From positions 1-44,999 of the IMG/VR virus record IMGVR_UViG_3300032291_004228: a stretch of DNA of 44,999 bases. One strand, 5' to 3'. Made by a program: the position numbers and the translations under genes. The notes beneath the pieces are model-generated. The model was not told where the DNA came from. It saw only the letters and a program-made list of their open reading frames with translations, and made no database searches. This document shows, one piece after another, positions 694 through 43,771 of the stretch (positions are counted from its first letter, which is position 1; the number at the start of each line of letters is the position of its first letter). The DNA comes from a virus.

Positions 694-1971
694 TTAAATT
701 AATATTTCACCATTTTTAAAAACAGTTACAAACCTATAATCTTCAACCCGACCACGAATTGATTTCTTTCCTTGGTCTGTAATTGGATCTTTATAAACAT
801 CTCGCCACTCACCATTTACTTTAATTGCAGAACATTTCATTGCAAATTTAAGCGTATCTCTGCTTACATTTTGCATTAAATCACCGCCAGAACCAAAAGC
901 AAAATTTTGAGCTGAAATATCATATTTTTCCGTTGCAGCAAGAATTTCATCAATTGTTTTTAAAGAAATTCCATCACCCCAAATAATCCGGTATTTATCA
1001 AAAACTTTGTAGCCTTTGCCGTTAAAAGAACGAGCAACGCCATTTGCTTCCATAATTTGAATAATTTTCTCAATTACTTCAATTGGCTTGCCGCTATCTG
1101 GTCGAATTACAAAAATTGGATAATCTTTGCTTTCAATTTTATCTTTCATTGTGCCACTAGTTACAAAATTTACAGCTTTGTAAATATCGTAAGAATCAAG
1201 CACGCAAGCAATAATTGGCGATGATTTATAAGTTTCTAAATAATTCTCAATCATCTCAAATTCGTTTTCACGACCCCAACTAGTTACCGTGGAATGCTCG
1301 CTTGCTCGAATTGAAAAACCTTGATATTTCCCATCATAATATTTGTTGGAATGCTCCAAACAATTAAAGTTATCCGTGCCTTTAAATTGTGTTAAGTGAG
1401 CAACTCCACCAATAGCCGCACTTTCAACACTTGAAGAGCCTCTATCTCCAAAGTTATGATAAGCAAAATCAACGCCGCTTATATCATCGGCAGTTTTTTC
1501 CCAGTGTTTTAAAAGCATTTCTTTGACAGCCAAAGACTTGCTTGCAATTGTTACAGGATACCAAAGCTTTAGTAGTAAAGTTTCAAGATAGCCAACAAGC
1601 CAAGCGCAGTTTGGATCGGTGTTTTCAATTGTTAGAAGAGGTTCTTTATTGCCGACAATTAAGCCTTCTGGTAACGCTTTAATTTCAATTGGTAATTTAC
1701 CATGCATTTCATACGCTATGTATTCCCAGCCCTTTCTATTAAAAGGCACTCCATGTGTATTTGCTAACTTTTCAGCATCGTCTATTTTATCAAATGTTAC
1801 CTTACCAAAGCCGCTTAAATATTCTTTTAAAATATAAGGCAAACCGTGCATCACAACCTTCTCATATTCCCCGCCTCTTGGCGCAAGGTAAGAATGGATA
1901 ATTTCAGTGCCTTTTGGATATTGGTTAAAATGCGAAAATTTGTAGCTGTCGCTTAAGTTTATTAAATTCAT
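694..1971 (-). CDS. nadV: Nicotinamide phosphoribosyltransferase
   Basis: This 425-residue protein makes NMN from nicotinamide and PRPP, the first step of a two-step NAD+ salvage route. Family signatures are clear: DSYK near residue 8, FGDRGSSSVESAAIGG about 173-188 (active-site Arg region), FKGTDN, SEHSTVTSWG with the catalytic His, VIRPDSGKP with the PRPP-binding Asp, GDGI, and FGSGGDLMQNVSRDTLKFAMK followed by KDP. It is somewhat shorter than animal NAMPT (about 490), as is usual for phage and bacterial NadV. It follows the radical SAM gene by 11 bases in one leftward operon with the adenylyltransferase. No Shine-Dalgarno sequence precedes ATG 1971. Likely role: restoring NAD+ during infection or countering NAD+-depleting defences. 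Confidence 0.95.
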   Translation of the reverse strand: MNLINLSDSYKFSHFNQYPKGTEIIHSYLAPRGGEYEKVVMHGLPYILKEYLSGFGKVTFDKIDDAEKLANTHGVPFNRKGWEYIAYEMHGKLPIEIKALPEGLIVGNKEPLLTIENTDPNCAWLVGYLETLLLKLWYPVTIASKSLAVKEMLLKHWEKTADDISGVDFAYHNFGDRGSSSVESAAIGGVAHLTQFKGTDNFNCLEHSNKYYDGKYQGFSIRASEHSTVTSWGRENEFEMIENYLETYKSSPIIACVLDSYDIYKAVNFVTSGTMKDKIESKDYPIFVIRPDSGKPIEVIEKIIQIMEANGVARSFNGKGYKVFDKYRIIWGDGISLKTIDEILAATEKYDISAQNFAFGSGGDLMQNVSRDTLKFAMKCSAIKVNGEWRDVYKDPITDQGKKSIRGRVEDYRFVTVFKNGEILI

Positions 1972-5138: not shown

Positions 5139-6087
5139 CTTTTACCTCTTCTTTTTTAGCTTTAACCTTAACCTTAAACTCCTTACTCTTAGCATCAAAC
5201 TCACAACCAAGCTCTGCAACTTTAGTCTTTAGAAAAGATGCTTCCATTTGGTAAGAAGACCAAAGCTTGTCATGCTTGTTGTAATGAGTGTTGTAATAGC
5301 TGTTTAGTTGCTCTAAATCTTTAATGTTTGCTACTTTAGTTTTTAGCTCTTCAATCAAAGCATCATAATCTTTTGCAAGCTCTTCATCCTTCTTAAGTTT
5401 TTCTTGGTAAGCGTCAAAGATTGCTTCTGAAAGAAAATTATTTATACCAGCAAGTGGTTTATATTCTAAAAAAGAATTAATTCCTAGCGAGTTTTTAGTG
5501 TAAAAGTTATCATTCGGAGATAAATCAATAGTTCTTTTACCACCTTGAATTGACATATAGCCAACAAAATCAAGTTCCTTAATAACATCTTTACCAGCTG
5601 AACCCGAAACATCGAGGCGTTTAAATACTTTATCATCCACTTTTTCTTCTCTTTCGTGAGAGATAAAAATTACTGATTTATTTTTTGCTTCCAATAATTT
5701 AAGAAGTCTTTGAAATTCACCTTTGATACTTCCCCAGCCTTTTTGAGACAATTGACCATCCAATTGTTTTAGTTTTGGGTTTGAAAGTGCAAGCCAGTCA
5801 CCCATTCTATCAATTACTTTTCCAAGGGTGTCAATTACAATCGTTTCAAAACTAGAAATATCTTCTTTTGTTAAAGTATCTATCAAATCTTGGTAGCTTT
5901 GGACTTCAATAAAATCAGTGCGATATTGTGGTGAAACACGCTTCAAGCCATTGTCAAAATCAATTAAAAGTGGTTTAGGTGCAGATAATGCTAAAACCGT
6001 TTTTCCAGCACCGGGTTGACCGTAAATAAGCCCTTTTAGTTTAATTTTAGTTTGCGTTAATTCATTTGGTTTTTTGATTAAACTCAT
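5125..6087 (-). CDS. Sak4-like ATP-binding recombination protein
   Basis: A 320-residue RecA-fold ATPase of the phage AAA_24/Sak4 group. Walker A is GQPGAGKT at 23-30 and Walker B is ETIVIDTLG at 81-89; FISHERE near 143 fits the sensor strand. The C-terminal third (about 225-320) is charged and helical. Sak4 proteins promote single-strand annealing together with the phage SSB, and the genome encodes an SSB and two nucleases in the same arm, giving a plausible recombination module. GAGG lies upstream of ATG 6087. Confidence 0.8.
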   Translation of the reverse strand: MSLIKKPNELTQTKIKLKGLIYGQPGAGKTVLALSAPKPLLIDFDNGLKRVSPQYRTDFIEVQSYQDLIDTLTKEDISSFETIVIDTLGKVIDRMGDWLALSNPKLKQLDGQLSQKGWGSIKGEFQRLLKLLEAKNKSVIFISHEREEKVDDKVFKRLDVSGSAGKDVIKELDFVGYMSIQGGKRTIDLSPNDNFYTKNSLGINSFLEYKPLAGINNFLSEAIFDAYQEKLKKDEELAKDYDALIEELKTKVANIKDLEQLNSYYNTHYNKHDKLWSSYQMEASFLKTKVAELGCEFDAKSKEFKVKVKAKKEEVKDANS

Positions 6088-6157
6088 TTTTATTTCCTCA
6101 TTTATTTGTTAATTTGACTTGCCCAATAGTACTAATATTCTTGCGAATCATTGTCGT

Positions 6158-6412
6158 TCATAAAACCTCTAATGATTTTAAGTGATCTATAGTTATCTCT
6201 TTATTTGAATTAAGATAAATGTGATCTTTGGCTGCTTCTAAATTCTTGCCATAAATTGCTTTGCCAATGTAATCATAAATTGCATTGCCAATGAAATTAT
6301 GAGAAGTTGTTGCCGCATTCATTGGCAATGCAATTCTAAAATTTGCCATTTGCTTTTCAGCATCAATCCAAGCCTGATGAATTTCTGGTGTTATTTCTAA
6401 TTGTTTTGTCAT
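6158..6412 (-). CDS. Hypothetical protein, 84 aa
   Basis: Not recognised. A soluble, mixed-charge protein with AAGG upstream of its ATG and 11 bases between it and the next gene upstream. Its position in a run of small early genes suggests an accessory role. Confidence 0.55.
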   Translation of the reverse strand: MTKQLEITPEIHQAWIDAEKQMANFRIALPMNAATTSHNFIGNAIYDYIGKAIYGKNLEAAKDHIYLNSNKEITIDHLKSLEVL

Positions 6413-10979: not shown

Positions 10980-11053
10980 AACAAAAATATCGCGGGGTCT
11001 AGCGATAGTAAAATCAAGGCTCTAGAAGCAAAAATGAACAAAAATATCGCGGG
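10980..11053 (+). repeat. 17-base direct repeat spanning the BstA-like start codon
   Basis: aacaaaaatatcgcggg is found at 10980-10996 and again at 11037-11053, starting directly after the ATG at 11034. The first copy lies in an 11-codon ORF (ATG 10966) that ends at TAG. In characterised BstA systems an anti-bstA DNA element spans the gene start; this repeat is in the equivalent place, but homology is not shown. Confidence 0.6.
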
Positions 11054-12062
11054 CGGCGTGACTATTCAAACCGAATTAGTTTTTGAAGTAGAGGTAGAAA
11101 AAGAAATTAACGGAATCCAGATGGGTGTTCTTAAGGGGGGAACTCCTTATTTAACGCAAACAGGATTAGCAAAGCTTTGCGGCATTCCAAGAAAAACAAT
11201 ATATAACATCGACCAAGAATTAAACACAGCAACACAAGGTAAAACCAAAGAACGCGCCGACAAACTCAGAGATTTGCTGAAAAGCCAAGATTATATTGAA
11301 CAAGATTTGTTCATAAAAATTAGAAATGGCGCAGATGCCTACAACGCTTATCCAGATAGTGTTTGTATGGCTCTTTTGGAATATTTCGCTTTTGAAGAGA
11401 ATCGTAAGGAGGCTTTAAATAGCTACAGATTGCTTGCTAGATCATCTTTTCGAGCATATATCTATAATCTTGTTGGCTACACCCAAGATACAAAGCGACT
11501 AGATGAATGGAAATATTTTCTAGATAGAGTTGATATAAATTTTGATGCCGTTCCTCATGGTTATTTTAGTATTTTTAAGGAAATTTCAGGTCTCACAGTT
11601 TCGTTGATAAAAAACAAAATTATGATAGACGATAGCACTATTCCTGACTTGAGTGTTGGCTCAACTTGGGGAAGATATTGGACAGAACACGACTTATCAA
11701 AAGAATTCGGCGACAGAATAAAATACAATCATAATTATCCAGATTATTACCCTCAGGCATTATCAAACCCTCAAGAAGCTTGGTGCTATCCTAATGATGC
11801 TCTAGCTTTGTTTAGATCATGGTTCACTGCTGAGTATATTTTCAATAAATTCCCAGCTTATCTATTAAGCAAAGTAAAACAGTTAAAACTCACTCACGAA
11901 CATAAAAATAAAATTTTGGAAGCGGTGAGGCCAAAGGAGATACAAGGGCAAACTGAGAATAACAAAATGATCGAAGCTATCCGACGAGATACTTTGGATT
12001 TAGAGAATCCAAATTTTGAAAAGAAGCTGGAAAAAATTTCTTTCGGAAAGAAAGGGAATTAG
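11034..12062 (+). CDS. KilA-N/P63C-type phage protein, possibly BstA-like
   Basis: A 342-residue protein, the only + strand gene in this part of the leftward arm. Residues 40-70 include a helix-turn-helix-like segment (TQTGLAKLCGIPRKTIYNID). The middle (about 120-150) has YRLLARSSFRAYIYNLVGYTQ, resembling the hinge region of P63C-type proteins, and the C-terminal half is rich in Trp, Tyr and Pro (GRYWTEHDL, PDYYPQAL, WCYPNDALALFRSWF). This overall plan resembles BstA, a prophage abortive-infection protein, and related KilA-N regulators. I cannot confirm the family by eye. The repeat at its start and the flanking inverted 20-base elements support a self-contained superinfection-exclusion or regulatory cassette. 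Confidence 0.5.
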   Translation: MNKNIAGGVTIQTELVFEVEVEKEINGIQMGVLKGGTPYLTQTGLAKLCGIPRKTIYNIDQELNTATQGKTKERADKLRDLLKSQDYIEQDLFIKIRNGADAYNAYPDSVCMALLEYFAFEENRKEALNSYRLLARSSFRAYIYNLVGYTQDTKRLDEWKYFLDRVDINFDAVPHGYFSIFKEISGLTVSLIKNKIMIDDSTIPDLSVGSTWGRYWTEHDLSKEFGDRIKYNHNYPDYYPQALSNPQEAWCYPNDALALFRSWFTAEYIFNKFPAYLLSKVKQLKLTHEHKNKILEAVRPKEIQGQTENNKMIEAIRRDTLDLENPNFEKKLEKISFGKKGN

Positions 12063-38536: not shown

Positions 38537-39061
38537 TTAGTTTATGAGCTTCGCTGGTAATTTTACAAGAACAAATAGATTGTCACTAACATCCTTCCAA
38601 ATACTCACTGGCTCGACACGTTCTTCTTTCATGTCGATTTTAGGCTCTGGTTTTGACATAACAATTTTTTCAGCTTCCAAAGCATCGACAAGATTTTGTG
38701 CTGCTTGTTTTAAATTTTCGTATTTTTGTTGCAAGTTGTCTTTCGAGTCTTCTTCATAATAAAGACCTAGAAACGATATACTGGATAAGCCATTTGTTAT
38801 GCCATCATCATCTTTGTAATGTATGAGATAATCTCCTTTTCGTTCTTCTATTTCAGTAACAATTACTTTCTTATTTTCACGAGTAGTTTTATTATTGTTG
38901 TTATCTAAGTATCTTTTTTGTAAGCGATATTTTTTTCCCACTACTGGCAATTTATCTGTCATGCACTTCTCCTTTTTGTTGAGTTTATTTATAGCTTCTT
39001 CACAAATTATAATAGCAGATTTAGCATCTCTTACCAATCTATCAGTTATAAGCGTTGTCAT
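38537..39061 (-). CDS. Hypothetical protein, 174 aa
   Basis: Last gene of the leftward arm. An N-terminal helix, then a beta-rich centre with KKYRLQKRYLDNNNNKTT and KVIVTEIEERKGDYLIHYKD (small SH3-like barrel plan), then a coiled coil (QQKYENLKQAAQNLVDALEAE). Not recognised. Its start overlaps the membrane protein stop. Confidence 0.55.
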   Translation of the reverse strand: MTTLITDRLVRDAKSAIIICEEAINKLNKKEKCMTDKLPVVGKKYRLQKRYLDNNNNKTTRENKKVIVTEIEERKGDYLIHYKDDDGITNGLSSISFLGLYYEEDSKDNLQQKYENLKQAAQNLVDALEAEKIVMSKPEPKIDMKEERVEPVSIWKDVSDNLFVLVKLPAKLIN

Positions 39062-39378
39062 TCGTCCTCATCAAATTTCGTGTCAGTCAAAATCTTACGA
39101 ATTTTAAAACCACCAACAATGGTTGATGCAATTGCAACCAAAAAGAAAAAGCTGGAGAAAACAAAGCACAAATTTTCGTTCGATTTCCAAATCTGAATTT
39201 TTTCTGGACTAATTCCGCTGTTTAAATCCAAATCTTTGAAGATGTAAAAAGCACATCCTAAAAACCACCCAGCAATTAAAAAGGAAATTGCGGCAACTAC
39301 GCCAACTGCAAAAAAATTCCATAATTCATCTTCCGATATTTCGTAGAATTTCATATCACGCCTCAAGTTATTTGTCAT
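39058..39378 (-). CDS. Membrane protein, 106 aa
   Basis: Two hydrophobic helices (about 24-45, FAVGVVAAISFLIAGWFLG, and 72-93, FVFSSFFFLVAIASTIVGG) and charged ends. Function unknown. Overlaps the next gene. Confidence 0.55.
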   Translation of the reverse strand: MTNNLRRDMKFYEISEDELWNFFAVGVVAAISFLIAGWFLGCAFYIFKDLDLNSGISPEKIQIWKSNENLCFVFSSFFFLVAIASTIVGGFKIRKILTDTKFDEDE

Positions 39379-39508
39379 TTTAATTGTTTTTTAATTAATA
39401 TCTCACCACGCCAGACTAACTCTTTGCTCAAATAAGTTTCGTCCAAAACTTTCTCCCAATTTACAATGGGCTGCGGTTAATCTGGCTTGGAAAGATATTG
39501 GCGGGAAT

Positions 39509-39545
39509 GATTGGAATCGAACCAATATTTAGACGAGGGGTTGAA
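39509..39545 (-). tRNA. tRNA-like T arm and CCA end
   Basis: ATTGG-TTCGATT-CCAAT is followed by CATTCCC, G and CCA. A matching acceptor strand GGGAATG is absent; GGGAGGTG at about 39621-39614 could pair with one bulge, giving a 120-nt body with a D-loop-like AGTTGGTA. It is enclosed by a stem (39464-39474 with 39554-39563), so it is more likely a tRNA-like domain of the large RNA than a separate tRNA. Confidence 0.35.
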
Positions 39546-40188
39546 CCCTCCTTGCAGCCATTGCTCGTTTTTAATTGATAAAAAATTTATCAATTACCAA
39601 CTATATGTCTCACCTCCCCTCGAAACGAAGCCAGAACGCGCCTAAACGACGCATAACAATTAATGTCCTGACTTCGTAGCCCTTTCGAGCATTAATTAGC
39701 TTAATTACCGAGAAAACCCCAATAATTGTCTAATATTCTTTAAACAGAAAGCTAAGTTTAGAGCTGCTTCTTTAGCTTAGCACGCTATAGTATGAAGTTA
39801 TCTCTGGCTCTTAAGCGTCTTTCGATTTTCTGCCATCCTTTCGGATTGATGCTATCGAATTCAATAGCATGTATTCACCCTCTTCTTTAACCGAGTAGGT
39901 TGCCTTTTTACAGAAGGCTAACTGTCCGCTCTCTCCGAATGTCAAACTCAATCGTTTTGTTCTCTTCTGTCCAGATTGCCAGAGTCCTTTCACCCAGTCA
40001 ATTAGTCTTACCTAATAGTAATGATACAAAACACTTTATTTACTTGGTTGTGTTTCGAATTATCTCCAAGCTCAATTTCTGTTTCCACTCATTGAGAAGC
40101 AGCCAATCGTATTGCTTGCAATTATACTTGATTAGCCTGACTTAGTGTTATTTCACTCATTGCTTTCGCAATTATGCAAGTCGTAGGT

Positions 40189-40237
40189 CTGCCTTCATCT
40201 TTGCCAAGGCTAGCTTAATAATTTTACCAAACTCTTT
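40189..40237. repeat. 49-base direct repeat, copy 1
   Basis: Matches 41041-41089 with one difference. In the - strand frame both copies encode KSLVKLLS and the TAG stop of the 155-residue gene; the difference is a synonymous TTA/TTG. Downstream both form a GCCTT/AAGGC hairpin. Confidence 0.9.
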
Positions 40238-40318
40238 TAACGATCGGTGAGTACTGTTTATCTACACAAGTGGGCTGAAACGCCCAGCGAGCCGCCAAAA
40301 AACTTTTAAGATTTCTAT

Positions 40319-40792
40319 ATGTTAGAAAATAAACTTCAAGTGTTCAGTATCCAAGAGCAGCTAAATTCTCACCAGCAGCAAATTAAGCATATTGAAGAAG
40401 AGAGAGCTAAAGCAACGGAAAAGTTTGATACTGACATTGCCACCCATCAAGCCATCGTGGATTTCCTAAAATCCAAATTATCAAAATCCCCTTCAATATC
40501 AGCATCGGTTATTATTAACCCAATCGCACAAACTTCACAGGAAGGAAACTCGGAAAAGAAAAAAAGAGTTTATACTATGCCCGGTGTTGTTGAGAAAGGC
40601 GTTTTGGCTATTCTGAAAGATAATTTGGAAGGAATGACAGTCCCAGAACTAAATAGAACCCTAGAGATTAGAGGAATAAAAGTTTCTCTTGGTGCGGTTG
40701 ATAATAACGTGAAGGGACTATTGGAAGATGGAATAATTAAAAAGCTAAATCCAGAAGATAAAGTTGGCGTAAAATACGGATTAGCTAAATAG
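40319..40792 (+). CDS. Coiled-coil protein with winged-helix-like end, 157 aa
   Basis: The only + strand gene in this part of the arm. Residues 8-55 form a coiled coil; 85-157 (GVVEKGVLAILKDNLEGMTVPELNRTLE...LGAVDNNVKGLLEDGII) look like a winged helix. A DNA-binding regulator is likely. It sits between 49-base direct repeats with its own structured leader (GGGC-TGAAAC-GCCC at 40272) and trailer, suggesting a separately acquired cassette. No Shine-Dalgarno sequence. Confidence 0.65.
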   Translation: MLENKLQVFSIQEQLNSHQQQIKHIEEERAKATEKFDTDIATHQAIVDFLKSKLSKSPSISASVIINPIAQTSQEGNSEKKKRVYTMPGVVEKGVLAILKDNLEGMTVPELNRTLEIRGIKVSLGAVDNNVKGLLEDGIIKKLNPEDKVGVKYGLAK

Positions 40793-40799
40793 AACACCG

Positions 40800-41040
40800 A
40801 AGAGGAAACTCTAAGGAAAAGAACATGGCAACTTGGCTCGAGTATGCGACTGCAAGCCAAGTGCCACATAGTTTGATTTAAGCGTGAAGCTCGCAACCAA
40901 AAGCGTCAGAACTTTTATGTTGTGGGTTTTTTATGAAAAATCAAGCATTTTAGTAAACGCTCTAATCTATTGGAGTGGTCGCACCAAATTTTTCGCAACA
41001 TGGTAAGACATGAGGGCGAAGAAGGTTATATCGAAGTTTT
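40800..41040 (+). ncRNA. Structured trailer after the 157-residue gene
   Basis: No gene found. On the + strand AGAG-GAAA-CTCT is followed by a 12-pair hairpin (TGGCA and CTTGGCT with AGCCAAG and TGCCA, about 40834-40874) and further pairings such as TTCGC with GCGAA around 41000-41022. It may be a 3' UTR structure or a separate RNA belonging to the cassette. Confidence 0.4.
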
Positions 41041-41089
41041 CTGCCTTCATCTTTGCCAAGGCTAGCTTAATAATTTTACTAAACTCTTT
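41041..41089. repeat. 49-base direct repeat, copy 2
   Basis: See copy 1 at 40189. This copy overlaps the end of the intact 155-residue gene. Confidence 0.9.
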
Positions 41090-41529
41090 ATTCTATCTTG
41101 CATCTTTTTAGCTGAAATTTCAGACTCTATTGCTCTTCTTTTATAATCATCTATATCTTTTAAATAAGATTTTAACCAACGCTTACAATCATTAATGTAA
41201 AATTTAAAAGCTTTTTCTTTGTTTGAAAAACATTTTTTACTATAAAGAAATGTAATTTTACCATTCTGTACAGTCATTGATATTTCTTTATATTTACTTC
41301 CTTGTAAAGTATAATGTTCAATTTTTTTATTTTCTTCATAAGAAATACTTTGTATTTCTAATTTTTTTTCACATTGTTCAAATGTTTCGTTTATCAAAGC
41401 ATCACAACAATAAATAACAGTTCCGTTAGGTAAAGTTGGCTCCCACTTTTGTTTTTTTCTTTTCATATTTTTATTTAATTTTAAGGCTGGCTTAAGTTTT
41501 TTTAAAGCAACGCTGGCAGAGAATTTCAC
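41062..41529 (-). CDS. Hypothetical basic protein, up to 155 aa
   Basis: Not recognised. The open frame begins at GTG 41529; ATG 41466 would give 134 residues and follows a very basic stretch (MKRKKQKWEP). Neither has a clear Shine-Dalgarno sequence. It contains GTVIYCCDALINETFEQC, a beta-rich centre and a Lys/Arg-rich helical C-terminus. Placed between two structured RNA regions, RNA binding is a fair guess. Confidence 0.5.
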   Translation of the reverse strand: MKFSASVALKKLKPALKLNKNMKRKKQKWEPTLPNGTVIYCCDALINETFEQCEKKLEIQSISYEENKKIEHYTLQGSKYKEISMTVQNGKITFLYSKKCFSNKEKAFKFYINDCKRWLKSYLKDIDDYKRRAIESEISAKKMQDRIKSLVKLLS

Positions 41530-41853
41530 TCTGCACGAACGGCATTTTCAGTTGATATGATACGTTTGCGCTGGATACAAGCCCACGTATCGGTATTTTA
41601 ATAAACCATCTAGCTGGTTCCGTTTATTAAAACCTACATCCTAACTATCCGTTCATAAACTCTAAATACAGCTAGATATAAGCAGAGTTATTTGAACATT
41701 TCGTCTTATTCCGACACAGCGTTGCCATAAAAAAACTTACGAAGCAGAACCAGAAAAGCAATTTTACAAAACTTTTCTGATCCTGCCCCAGTTGAAGACT
41801 GTTTTCAGTCTATCTCTTACGAGATTCTTTGCCTAATCTTTAGCTGGCAAGCT
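41530..41853 (-). ncRNA. Structured leader or separate RNA, about 320 nt
   Basis: No gene found. On the - strand GCAGGATCAGAAAAG pairs with CTTTTCTGGTTCTGC (41786-41743), 15 pairs including two G-U; a T7 run follows shortly. AGACTG-AAAA-CAGTCT and TCTC-GTAA-GAGA hairpins precede it, and AATAAAC/GTTTATT arms follow near 41600-41628. Probably a processed or terminated RNA upstream of the basic protein gene. Confidence 0.45.
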
Positions 41854-42081
41854 TTAAATTATAACTTTCCCCAAACAAATTCTTTTAAAAGTTTCAAACT
41901 CTTTTTTTATTGAGTTACGAAAAATCTTTGAAGAGCAAAAATTCTTGTTTGCTTTTCTCATGATTTTTATTTTGTTTTTTGTTACCGCATCGCTAGAAAG
42001 ATAAATCCGAGTGTATTTTTCTTCTGGCTTTTTACGAGGTCTTCCACGTATTTTCTTTGCGGCAGTTTTATTGTCAAGCAT
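41854..42081 (-). CDS. Small basic protein, 75 aa
   Basis: AT-hook-like start (KKIRGRPRKKPEEKY) and a Lys/Arg-rich helical remainder. It overlaps the VRR-NUC stop (TAATG). Probably nucleic-acid binding; not recognised. Confidence 0.55.
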   Translation of the reverse strand: MLDNKTAAKKIRGRPRKKPEEKYTRIYLSSDAVTKNKIKIMRKANKNFCSSKIFRNSIKKEFETFKRICLGKVII

Positions 42082-42512
42082 TATTTTTTAATAACTCCAT
42101 TTTTTTCTAAAAATTCAATTGCTTCCTTTACAGAGTAAGCGACAAAATAAAAACTATTTACCGAGTCTTTAAAAATATTTTCAAAATCTTTTTGTAACTC
42201 ACTTTGTTTCCCTGCCGCAGTTTTAGTCTTTGGTTTTTTAAATTCAATCCAAAAATAAAGCGTTTCAAAGATTGGTGAATTACAACCATTTTTTCTACCA
42301 CATTGCCTATTCTTAATAAAAAGATAATCCGCTTTGCCAGATTGCAGCCCTTTCGCCTTAAGTAAAGAAGCCGTCATTACTGTTCTTTTTTCTCCCGTGC
42401 TATCATAGCTCCAGAAATCACATTTAAGCTTTTTGTAAAGCTCTAATTGCCTAATCATTGCGGCAAAGTCTTTGTGGATTTTGTCTTCTATTCCTAAGCC
42501 TCTTTTAGCCAT
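42081..42512 (-). CDS. VRR-NUC nuclease
   Basis: A 143-residue single-domain nuclease. GKADYLFIKN near 58-67 and WIEFKKPKTKTAAGKQSELQKDF near 88-110 carry the D...ExK and Gln of VRR-NUC. Such phage proteins often resolve branched DNA during replication. It overlaps the GNAT-like gene by 8 bases. Confidence 0.8.
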   Translation of the reverse strand: MAKRGLGIEDKIHKDFAAMIRQLELYKKLKCDFWSYDSTGEKRTVMTASLLKAKGLQSGKADYLFIKNRQCGRKNGCNSPIFETLYFWIEFKKPKTKTAAGKQSELQKDFENIFKDSVNSFYFVAYSVKEAIEFLEKNGVIKK

Positions 42513-43279: not shown

Positions 43280-43771
43280 TTATCTAACCTCTATTCCTTC
43301 TTTCTTTGAATATTTAAGCATCTCCGAATTATAGTCGAAAACCTTAATTTCTTCTTTGGCGTTTTTTATGATGTTAAAAAGCCTAATCTCATCTTGTTTA
43401 ATAAAATTAGTTTCTTGTGCCGCCTCAACCAAAGCCTCAAGCATTTCGTAAGAATGATTTGTGGCAAAAACCTGTAAATCATTCTCAATTACCGAAGCAA
43501 TAAGCTTAGTCCAAAAATCTTTCATAATTGTAAAATGCAAACCATTTTCAATTTCATCGAATAAAACAATCTTTGATCCTTGGCAAACTCTATAAAATCT
43601 CCACGAAGAAAAAAATGGCGCATATTCTTGGTGGTAAGTTTCATTAATCCACTCAAGAACTGCCGTCTTTCCAACTCCATTTTTACCAACTAGCAAATTA
43701 ATCCGTTTGCAATCTTTAATTTTTAGATCGGTTATGTTGCGATAGTTTTGAATGTAAATGTCTTTAATCAT
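43280..43771 (-). CDS. Shortened OLD/AAA_15-like ATPase
   Basis: A 163-residue protein with the start of an OLD/RecF-type ATPase (IKDIYIQNYRNI), Walker A GKNGVGKT at 29-36, Walker B KIVLFDEIENGLH at 67-79 and H-loop FATNHS near 103-108. Only about 30 residues separate Walker A from Walker B, and no ABC signature is visible; normal members have well over 100 there. An in-frame internal deletion is likely. The ATPase may be inactive, or act as a decoy or partner of a host ABC-type defence protein. Confidence 0.7.
   Translation of the reverse strand: MIKDIYIQNYRNITDLKIKDCKRINLLVGKNGVGKTAVLEWINETYHQEYAPFFSSWRFYRVCQGSKIVLFDEIENGLHFTIMKDFWTKLIASVIENDLQVFATNHSYEMLEALVEAAQETNFIKQDEIRLFNIIKNAKEEIKVFDYNSEMLKYSKKEGIEVR

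Follow-up and report, generated by a model that had tools for sequence, protein, structure and literature searches.

The DNA analysed here (the window) comprises positions 1 to 44,999 of IMG/VR virus record IMGVR_UViG_3300032291_004228. Judged by comparison with related sequences, its minus strand carries a long modular structured RNA, made up of a tRNA-like core, small H-type pseudoknots in repeated copies, hairpins of the GNRA type and a 3' domain that is conserved. Read from 5' to 3' on the minus strand, the features are as follows.

41831..41852, minus strand: 5'-most H-type pseudoknot, with S1 GCU/AGC, S2 GCC/GGC and the conserved loop UAAAGAUUA
41494..41737, minus strand: core domain 'B', with P1a AGUUUUUUUA/UAAAAAAACU and P1b GCAACGCUG/CAGCGUUGC, the conserved GUGUCGGAAUAAGAC and a variable 165-nt insert
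41516..41534, minus strand: T-arm-like hairpin of the core, GCAGAG-UGAAAUU-CUCUGC, with a 7-nt T-loop-like loop, joined directly to P1b
41062..41466, minus strand: 134-aa ORF that separates the core domain from the pseudoknot after it (the ORF tool lists a GTG start at 41529)
41040..41089, minus strand: outer copy of a 50-bp direct repeat, spanning the last part of the 134-aa ORF and pseudoknot Y
41043..41066, minus strand: pseudoknot Y, copy 1, GCUAGCCUUGGCAAAGAUGAAGGC
40238..41039, no strand assigned: 802-bp insertion, holding a plus-strand ORF at 40319-40792 (157 aa, no family)
40188..40237, minus strand: inner copy of the 50-bp direct repeat, which restarts the RNA
40191-40214, minus strand: pseudoknot Y, copy 2, inside the inner repeat
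40159..40172, minus strand: GAAA hairpin, AUUGCGAAAGCAAU
39900..39925, minus strand: pseudoknot or hairpin Z (PK-Z), ACAGUUAGCCUUCUGUAAAAAGGCAA
39835..39846, minus strand: GAAA hairpin, AUCCGAAAGGAU
39679..39690, minus strand: GAAA hairpin, GCUCGAAAGGGC, with counterparts GCUCGAAAGAGC in L038 and CCUCGAAAGAGG in L092
39625..39677, minus strand: module C, an 18-bp interrupted hairpin, ACGAAGUCAGGACA...GUUCUGGCUUCGU
39499..39619, minus strand: CCA-ended tRNA-like element, with an acceptor and T arm and with D and anticodon regions that are not tRNA-like
39392..39493, minus strand: module D, the closing 3' domain, with the stem GCCAGAUUAAC/GUUAGUCUGGC and inner hairpins

The first-pass annotation of this DNA had proposed a large structured minus-strand RNA, in a stretch lacking genes, at 39405-40290. 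The region is gene-poor, and the predicted fold bears the proposal out, with an MFE of -254.6 kcal/mol for the minus strand of 39405-40310 (z -3.5 against dinucleotide shuffles) and of -206.5 for the plus strand (z -2.7 on the same basis). The proposed extent holds for most of its length, but its 5' boundary was misplaced, as 40238-40290 belongs to an inserted element; the joined sequence of the relatives puts the 5' start at about 41865 in the window, and the RNA is larger than first described. Two ORF-bearing insertions lie within it in the window. The two 50-bp repeats (40188-40237 and 41040-41089) differ by one mismatch and are 98% identical. In L017 and L018 the 802-bp insertion is absent, there is one copy of the repeat, and the middle part of the RNA is joined to what in the window is found past 41040. 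It follows that the window RNA is interrupted by the 802-bp insertion and the 134-aa ORF. The latter gave no match in a Pfam search; at the same junction of core and pseudoknot it is present in L017 and L029 and absent from L013 and L018. The RNA at 39405-40290 is overlapped by two ORFs, of 60 and 81 aa, attributed to chance, and no conserved ORF was found in this region. Homologues that keep a reading frame rather than stems had been named as the observation that would count against an RNA; what the relatives retain is the stems, while the sequence is replaced.

Related loci number about ten in viral contigs, together with four contigs in three Rickettsiales genomes. Sister contigs came from a search for the phage endolysin, and scanning with patterns taken from the RNA added L022, L024, L029 and L038. 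A degenerate loop pattern run against viral contigs gave L038 as the single new member, alongside contigs known already, among the matches listed and checked for other modules. L092 covers the full L021 locus, and L147 and L148 are second arrays in the contigs of L015 and L017. Blastn of the window RNA against INPHARED and PLSDB found nothing, and the RNAs of L022 and L013 gave only chance-level matches there. The relatives have modules in common but in differing order, and between the modules lie tRNA genes, degenerate tRNAs and small ORFs.

The core domain is built around a double stem, P1a-P1b, which surrounds an unrelated insert of 33-165 nt in the different copies. Ten core copies were aligned, giving nine distinct rows. 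Over these rows 90/90 cells of P1a and 79/81 of P1b are paired (169/171 together), with double changes at 8/10 and 8/9 pairs respectively (16/19 together) and covariation scores of 0.66 and 0.98 that were reached in 0/2000 shuffles; the helix registers were set manually, and sequence kinship inflates both the pairing and the covariation counts. Nearly the whole sequence of the arms has been replaced, as seen on comparing GCAACGCUG/CAGCGUUGC with GCUAGUGUU/AACACUAGC and GCAAAAUCG/CGGUUUUGC. Seven of the ten copies have a hairpin with a 7-nt loop (UGAAAUU, UGAAAGU, UGCAAAU or UGAAAAC) adjoining the 3' arm of P1b, for example GCAAAGG-UGAAAGU-CCUUUGC in L092 and GCAGAG-UGCAAAU-CUUUGC in L038, and in most of them UGUGGYGGAAUAAGAC follows the 5' arm. 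The hairpin lies against P1b as a T arm lies against the acceptor stem in tRNA, and we infer that the core may form a tRNA-like elbow; its acceptor-like stem has no CCA end.

A CCA end is found in the element at 39499-39619, where the T arm ATTGG-TTCGATT-CCAAT is followed by an acceptor and CCA. This is the T arm with CCA noted from the sequence originally, and it is real, if weak as a tRNA: the Rfam tRNA model scores it at 17.1 bits (E=3), below the threshold of 29 bits, its fold has z -2.1, ARAGORN calls no tRNA there, and only the acceptor and T arm of a canonical cloverleaf are found. Its counterpart in L154 scores 34.3 bits with the same model. The single tRNA-like domain of the first-pass annotation is present, but as one of several tRNA-like elements in a longer, modular RNA.

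The second recurrent element is an H-type pseudoknot of 22-26 nt, S1-L1-S2-S1'-UAAAGAUGA-S2', present in at most three copies per array. The 3-bp S1 is paired in 38/39 cells and occurs in 13 distinct versions, a result equalled in 0/5000 strand shuffles. L1 is 1 nt, S2 3-4 bp and L3 9 nt, sizes that are compatible with a small H-type pseudoknot. The 5'-most copy of the window has the same motif opening the RNA in L013, L017, L018 and L029. PK-Z is identical or compensated in L018, L038, L092, L147, L148 and L151-L154. Its CUGUAAA loop and 5-bp stem resemble the anticodon arm of tRNA-Tyr, and a Tyr anticodon mimic was considered and set aside: the flanking ACAG is able to pair with CUGU in the window, L018 and L038, so that a pseudoknot fits equally well. 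The second helix of this pseudoknot is broken in L147 and L148.

The remaining modules also show compensation, with double changes in 2/18 pairs of module C (five relatives, and several G-U swaps), in 4/32 predicted pairs of module D (six relatives) and in 7/43 predicted pairs of module E (L038, L092, L151 and L152). The RNA ends at its 3' side either with D (window, L013, L017, L018, L022, L024) or with E/PK-Z (L038, L092, L151, L152). Modules C and D occur together in the window, L013, L017, L018 and L022, and D occurs alone in L024. Covariation in the family, which the first-pass annotation had put forward as a check, is thus seen in P1a/P1b, pseudoknot S1 and modules C, D and E. It is the retention of the fold in relatives while the letters change that argues for a real structured RNA.

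G-U and A-C pairs stand at 7:0 in P1 and 10:0 in pseudoknot S1, which fits an RNA on the minus strand rather than pairing of DNA. Structures from RNAalifold favour G-U by construction, and modules C, D and E were therefore kept out of this strand test. The three minus-strand GAAA hairpins pointed out at the start are also confirmed: with stems of at least 4 bp there are exactly three on the minus strand of 39395-40237 and none on the plus strand. Mononucleotide shuffles of 39395-40237 plus 41480-41865 give an expectation of 0.2, and 4/2000 of them reached three.

Several loci carry real tRNA genes between the modules: Gln in L018; Met, Asn and Trp in L092; Asn and Gln in L153; and one canonical tRNA, Leu by eye, in L154. 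L015 has two tRNA-Ser. Directly after them is a D-like hairpin, seen by eye, CACGCCAGAUUGC...GCAGUCUGGCGUG (L015 14170-14100, minus strand), at about the position of the window RNA, and it is possible that this is a minimal version of the RNA. Degenerate tRNA-like elements are found in the window, L022, L038, L147 and L154 (those of L038 and L147 by eye).

A Rfam cmscan of the whole window at gathering thresholds gave no hit. GOLLD and ROOL were not matched at E values up to 10 (window 39000-40700 and 41000-41900, L013, L022), 5 (L018) or 1 (L092, L147, L148, L153, L154), and the Rfam check proposed originally, with GOLLD, ROOL, OLE and tmRNA, detected no homology. Rfam and ARAGORN found no tmRNA in the window or in the relatives scanned, ARAGORN reported neither tRNA nor tmRNA in the whole window, and for group I/II intron and RNase P motifs, looked for by eye, Rfam gave no match. 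GOLLD is a phage-encoded RNA of more than 800 nt, near or containing tRNAs, with a variable linker that may hold tRNAs and with pseudoknots; ROOL is a large structured phage RNA near tRNA islands, also with pseudoknots, and each of the two assembles into cages (PMC12286853). Neither class is described in that account as having repeated modules or a free module order (PMC12286853). The resemblance to GOLLD, known from phages and prophages of Lactobacillales and from environmental sequences, extends to size, phage setting, tRNAs, a variable insert and pseudoknots. The new RNA differs from GOLLD in not matching its covariance model and in having repeated pseudoknot modules, embedded ORFs and a tRNA-like core; in place of a universal 3' region with a variable 5' region, or any one 3' half conserved throughout the family, there are the two 3' ends. 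With ROOL it shares size, structure, phage origin, tRNA association and pseudoknots, and differs from it in the lack of a model match, in variable module order and in its other elements. Phage tRNA arrays likewise contain real tRNA genes, apparently co-transcribed, in an early region, whereas here a larger covarying RNA may or may not host tRNAs, and several loci have none. The new class first mooted is thus plausible, given covariation and no model match, and these sequence comparisons make it very probable that this is a new class of large modular structured phage RNA, analogous to GOLLD and ROOL and not a member of either.

Several other readings have to be weighed against this one. A highly diverged GOLLD/ROOL-type RNA that assembles into a homo-oligomeric cage and carries tRNAs in linkers would account for the shared features just listed; given the silent covariance models and a repeated, freely ordered construction foreign to those classes, we regard it as improbable. 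The cassette-like shuffling of ORFs, tRNAs and modules might instead reflect elements acting as DNA, such as attC-like hairpin recombination sites or the seams of a cassette array that exchanges small anti-defence genes, with pairing of single-stranded DNA under selection. The direct repeats around the 802-bp insertion and the AAATCGTAAATAT repeats that flank the tRNA block of L092 would suit such elements, but the two best helices have G-U and no A-C pairs, GAAA loops are confined to one strand, the loops of the core hairpins are T-loop-like, and no integrase-type gene was recognised beside the RNA among 10 ORFs at 37.9-45.0 kb; this explanation is a little more doubtful still. Degenerate tRNA-like elements are what a decaying tRNA array, of functionless tRNAs and spacers, would leave behind. 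Selection is needed, however, to explain the compensatory changes in the pseudoknots and at nearly every pair of P1; these contradict decay, which we consider very unlikely. tmRNA combines a T-arm/acceptor-like domain, multiple H-type pseudoknots and an embedded reading frame, and all three ingredients are found here. A tmRNA-like RNA acting in translation is nevertheless the least likely of these readings, because no tmRNA model matches, the core lacks CCA, and the ORFs resemble ordinary small genes with their own starts rather than tags.

The main rival is control in cis, in which the modules would be structured leaders or intergenic regions governing how stable the small early ORFs downstream are, or how they are translated or read through. 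It is the main rival because each unit stops 10-50 nt short of a start codon, with an AU-rich ...AUAUUAA(C) linker between the unit end and the ATG. A promoter lies directly upstream in several loci: L092, L038, L153, L154 and L151 (5/9 loci) begin just after TTGACA-(15-17)-TATAAT-like boxes, of which there are three pairs in the 45-kb window on both strands. At the 5' edge of the window RNA no promoter is scored, and there is just a TTATAAT-type sequence where the upstream gene ends; within 39000-42200 promoters are predicted no more often than chance would give. Against control in cis stand the length of 600-1200 nt, the interruption by whole tRNA genes and ORFs, and a module order that is not tied to the downstream gene. 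It also tells mildly against it that differing ORFs follow one module and that one gene follows differing modules (module D in L024, pseudoknot Y in L029). We take control in cis to be a minority possibility that deserves attention, and lean towards a structured RNA acting in trans.

A trans-acting RNA would be transcribed together with the early operon, driven in the relatives by a strong promoter at the 5' edge of the RNA. Once the tRNAs were processed and the AU-rich linkers cut, stable folded pieces would be set free, which could act in trans, most likely as a scaffold or decoy for host proteins that handle or attack tRNA. The gene neighbourhood links this to defence: ORFs with an Acb2/Tad1 domain (PF24729) adjoin or sit within four arrays, in L153, L147 and L017 above the Pfam cut-off and in L148 below it (19.8 bits). 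Acb2/Tad1 domains are sponges of immune cyclic nucleotides, and the RNA may belong to a counter-defence region that also encodes such sponges. A specific decoy or counter-defence role is suggested only tentatively by this neighbourhood. The fullest version, an undescribed giant modular RNA class that shuffles tRNA-derived elbows, tiny pseudoknots and real tRNAs, and serves Rickettsiales phages as a tRNA-mimicking decoy or scaffold beside Acb2/Tad1-type sponges, is a shade more speculative.

The host assignment comes from the motif searches. In genomes of 84,980 species the 22-nt sequence of PK-Z occurs in three contigs, all of Rickettsiales MAGs; among 344 Rickettsiales genomes PK-Z is found in three, and pseudoknot X, an unrelated motif searched separately, in two of those three. 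A pattern search with module D matched no cellular genome. Since the cellular matches to PK-Z are confined to Rickettsiales MAGs, and pseudoknot X points to the same genomes, the window phage probably infects Rickettsiales, bearing in mind that MAG bins can hold stray phage contigs. To our knowledge little is known of the biology of Rickettsiales phages, and the RNA family offers a way into it. Giant structured RNAs of phages known so far are few, and this family would be an independent addition with a clear anatomy, whose modular build makes single modules usable for binding and protection tests.

Some further observations were made at these loci. The window encodes a BstA-like abortive-infection protein (11034-12062, plus strand; phrog_6287, E 2.5e-90), pointing to a temperate phage or a relative of a prophage. 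A nicotinamide phosphoribosyltransferase (694-1971, minus strand; phrog_448, E 1e-130) could possibly provide NAD salvage in answer to NAD-depleting defences. At 43280-43771 on the minus strand, a 163-aa protein brings together both termini of an AAA_15/AAA_21 (OLD/AbiEii-like) ATPase whose central part seems to be missing. In L153 the gene of a crAss001_48-related protein (PF21825; 2737-3060, plus strand) stands between two RNA units, and a pair of Gly/Asp-rich repeat ORFs, in two copies, is open in several frames (5375-6207, plus strand). A protein of L015 contains a long series of five-residue repeats in which cysteine and serine abound (NCSYCSxCS...; 13920-13680, minus strand). Finally, L147 (1300-1130, minus strand) and L148 (1590-1400, minus strand) share a near-identical 5' domain (GGGGGAUGAAACAAAUCGGACUAAGGGGCUGGCAAG...) in arrays that are otherwise different, and this domain is a putative further module of the RNA family.
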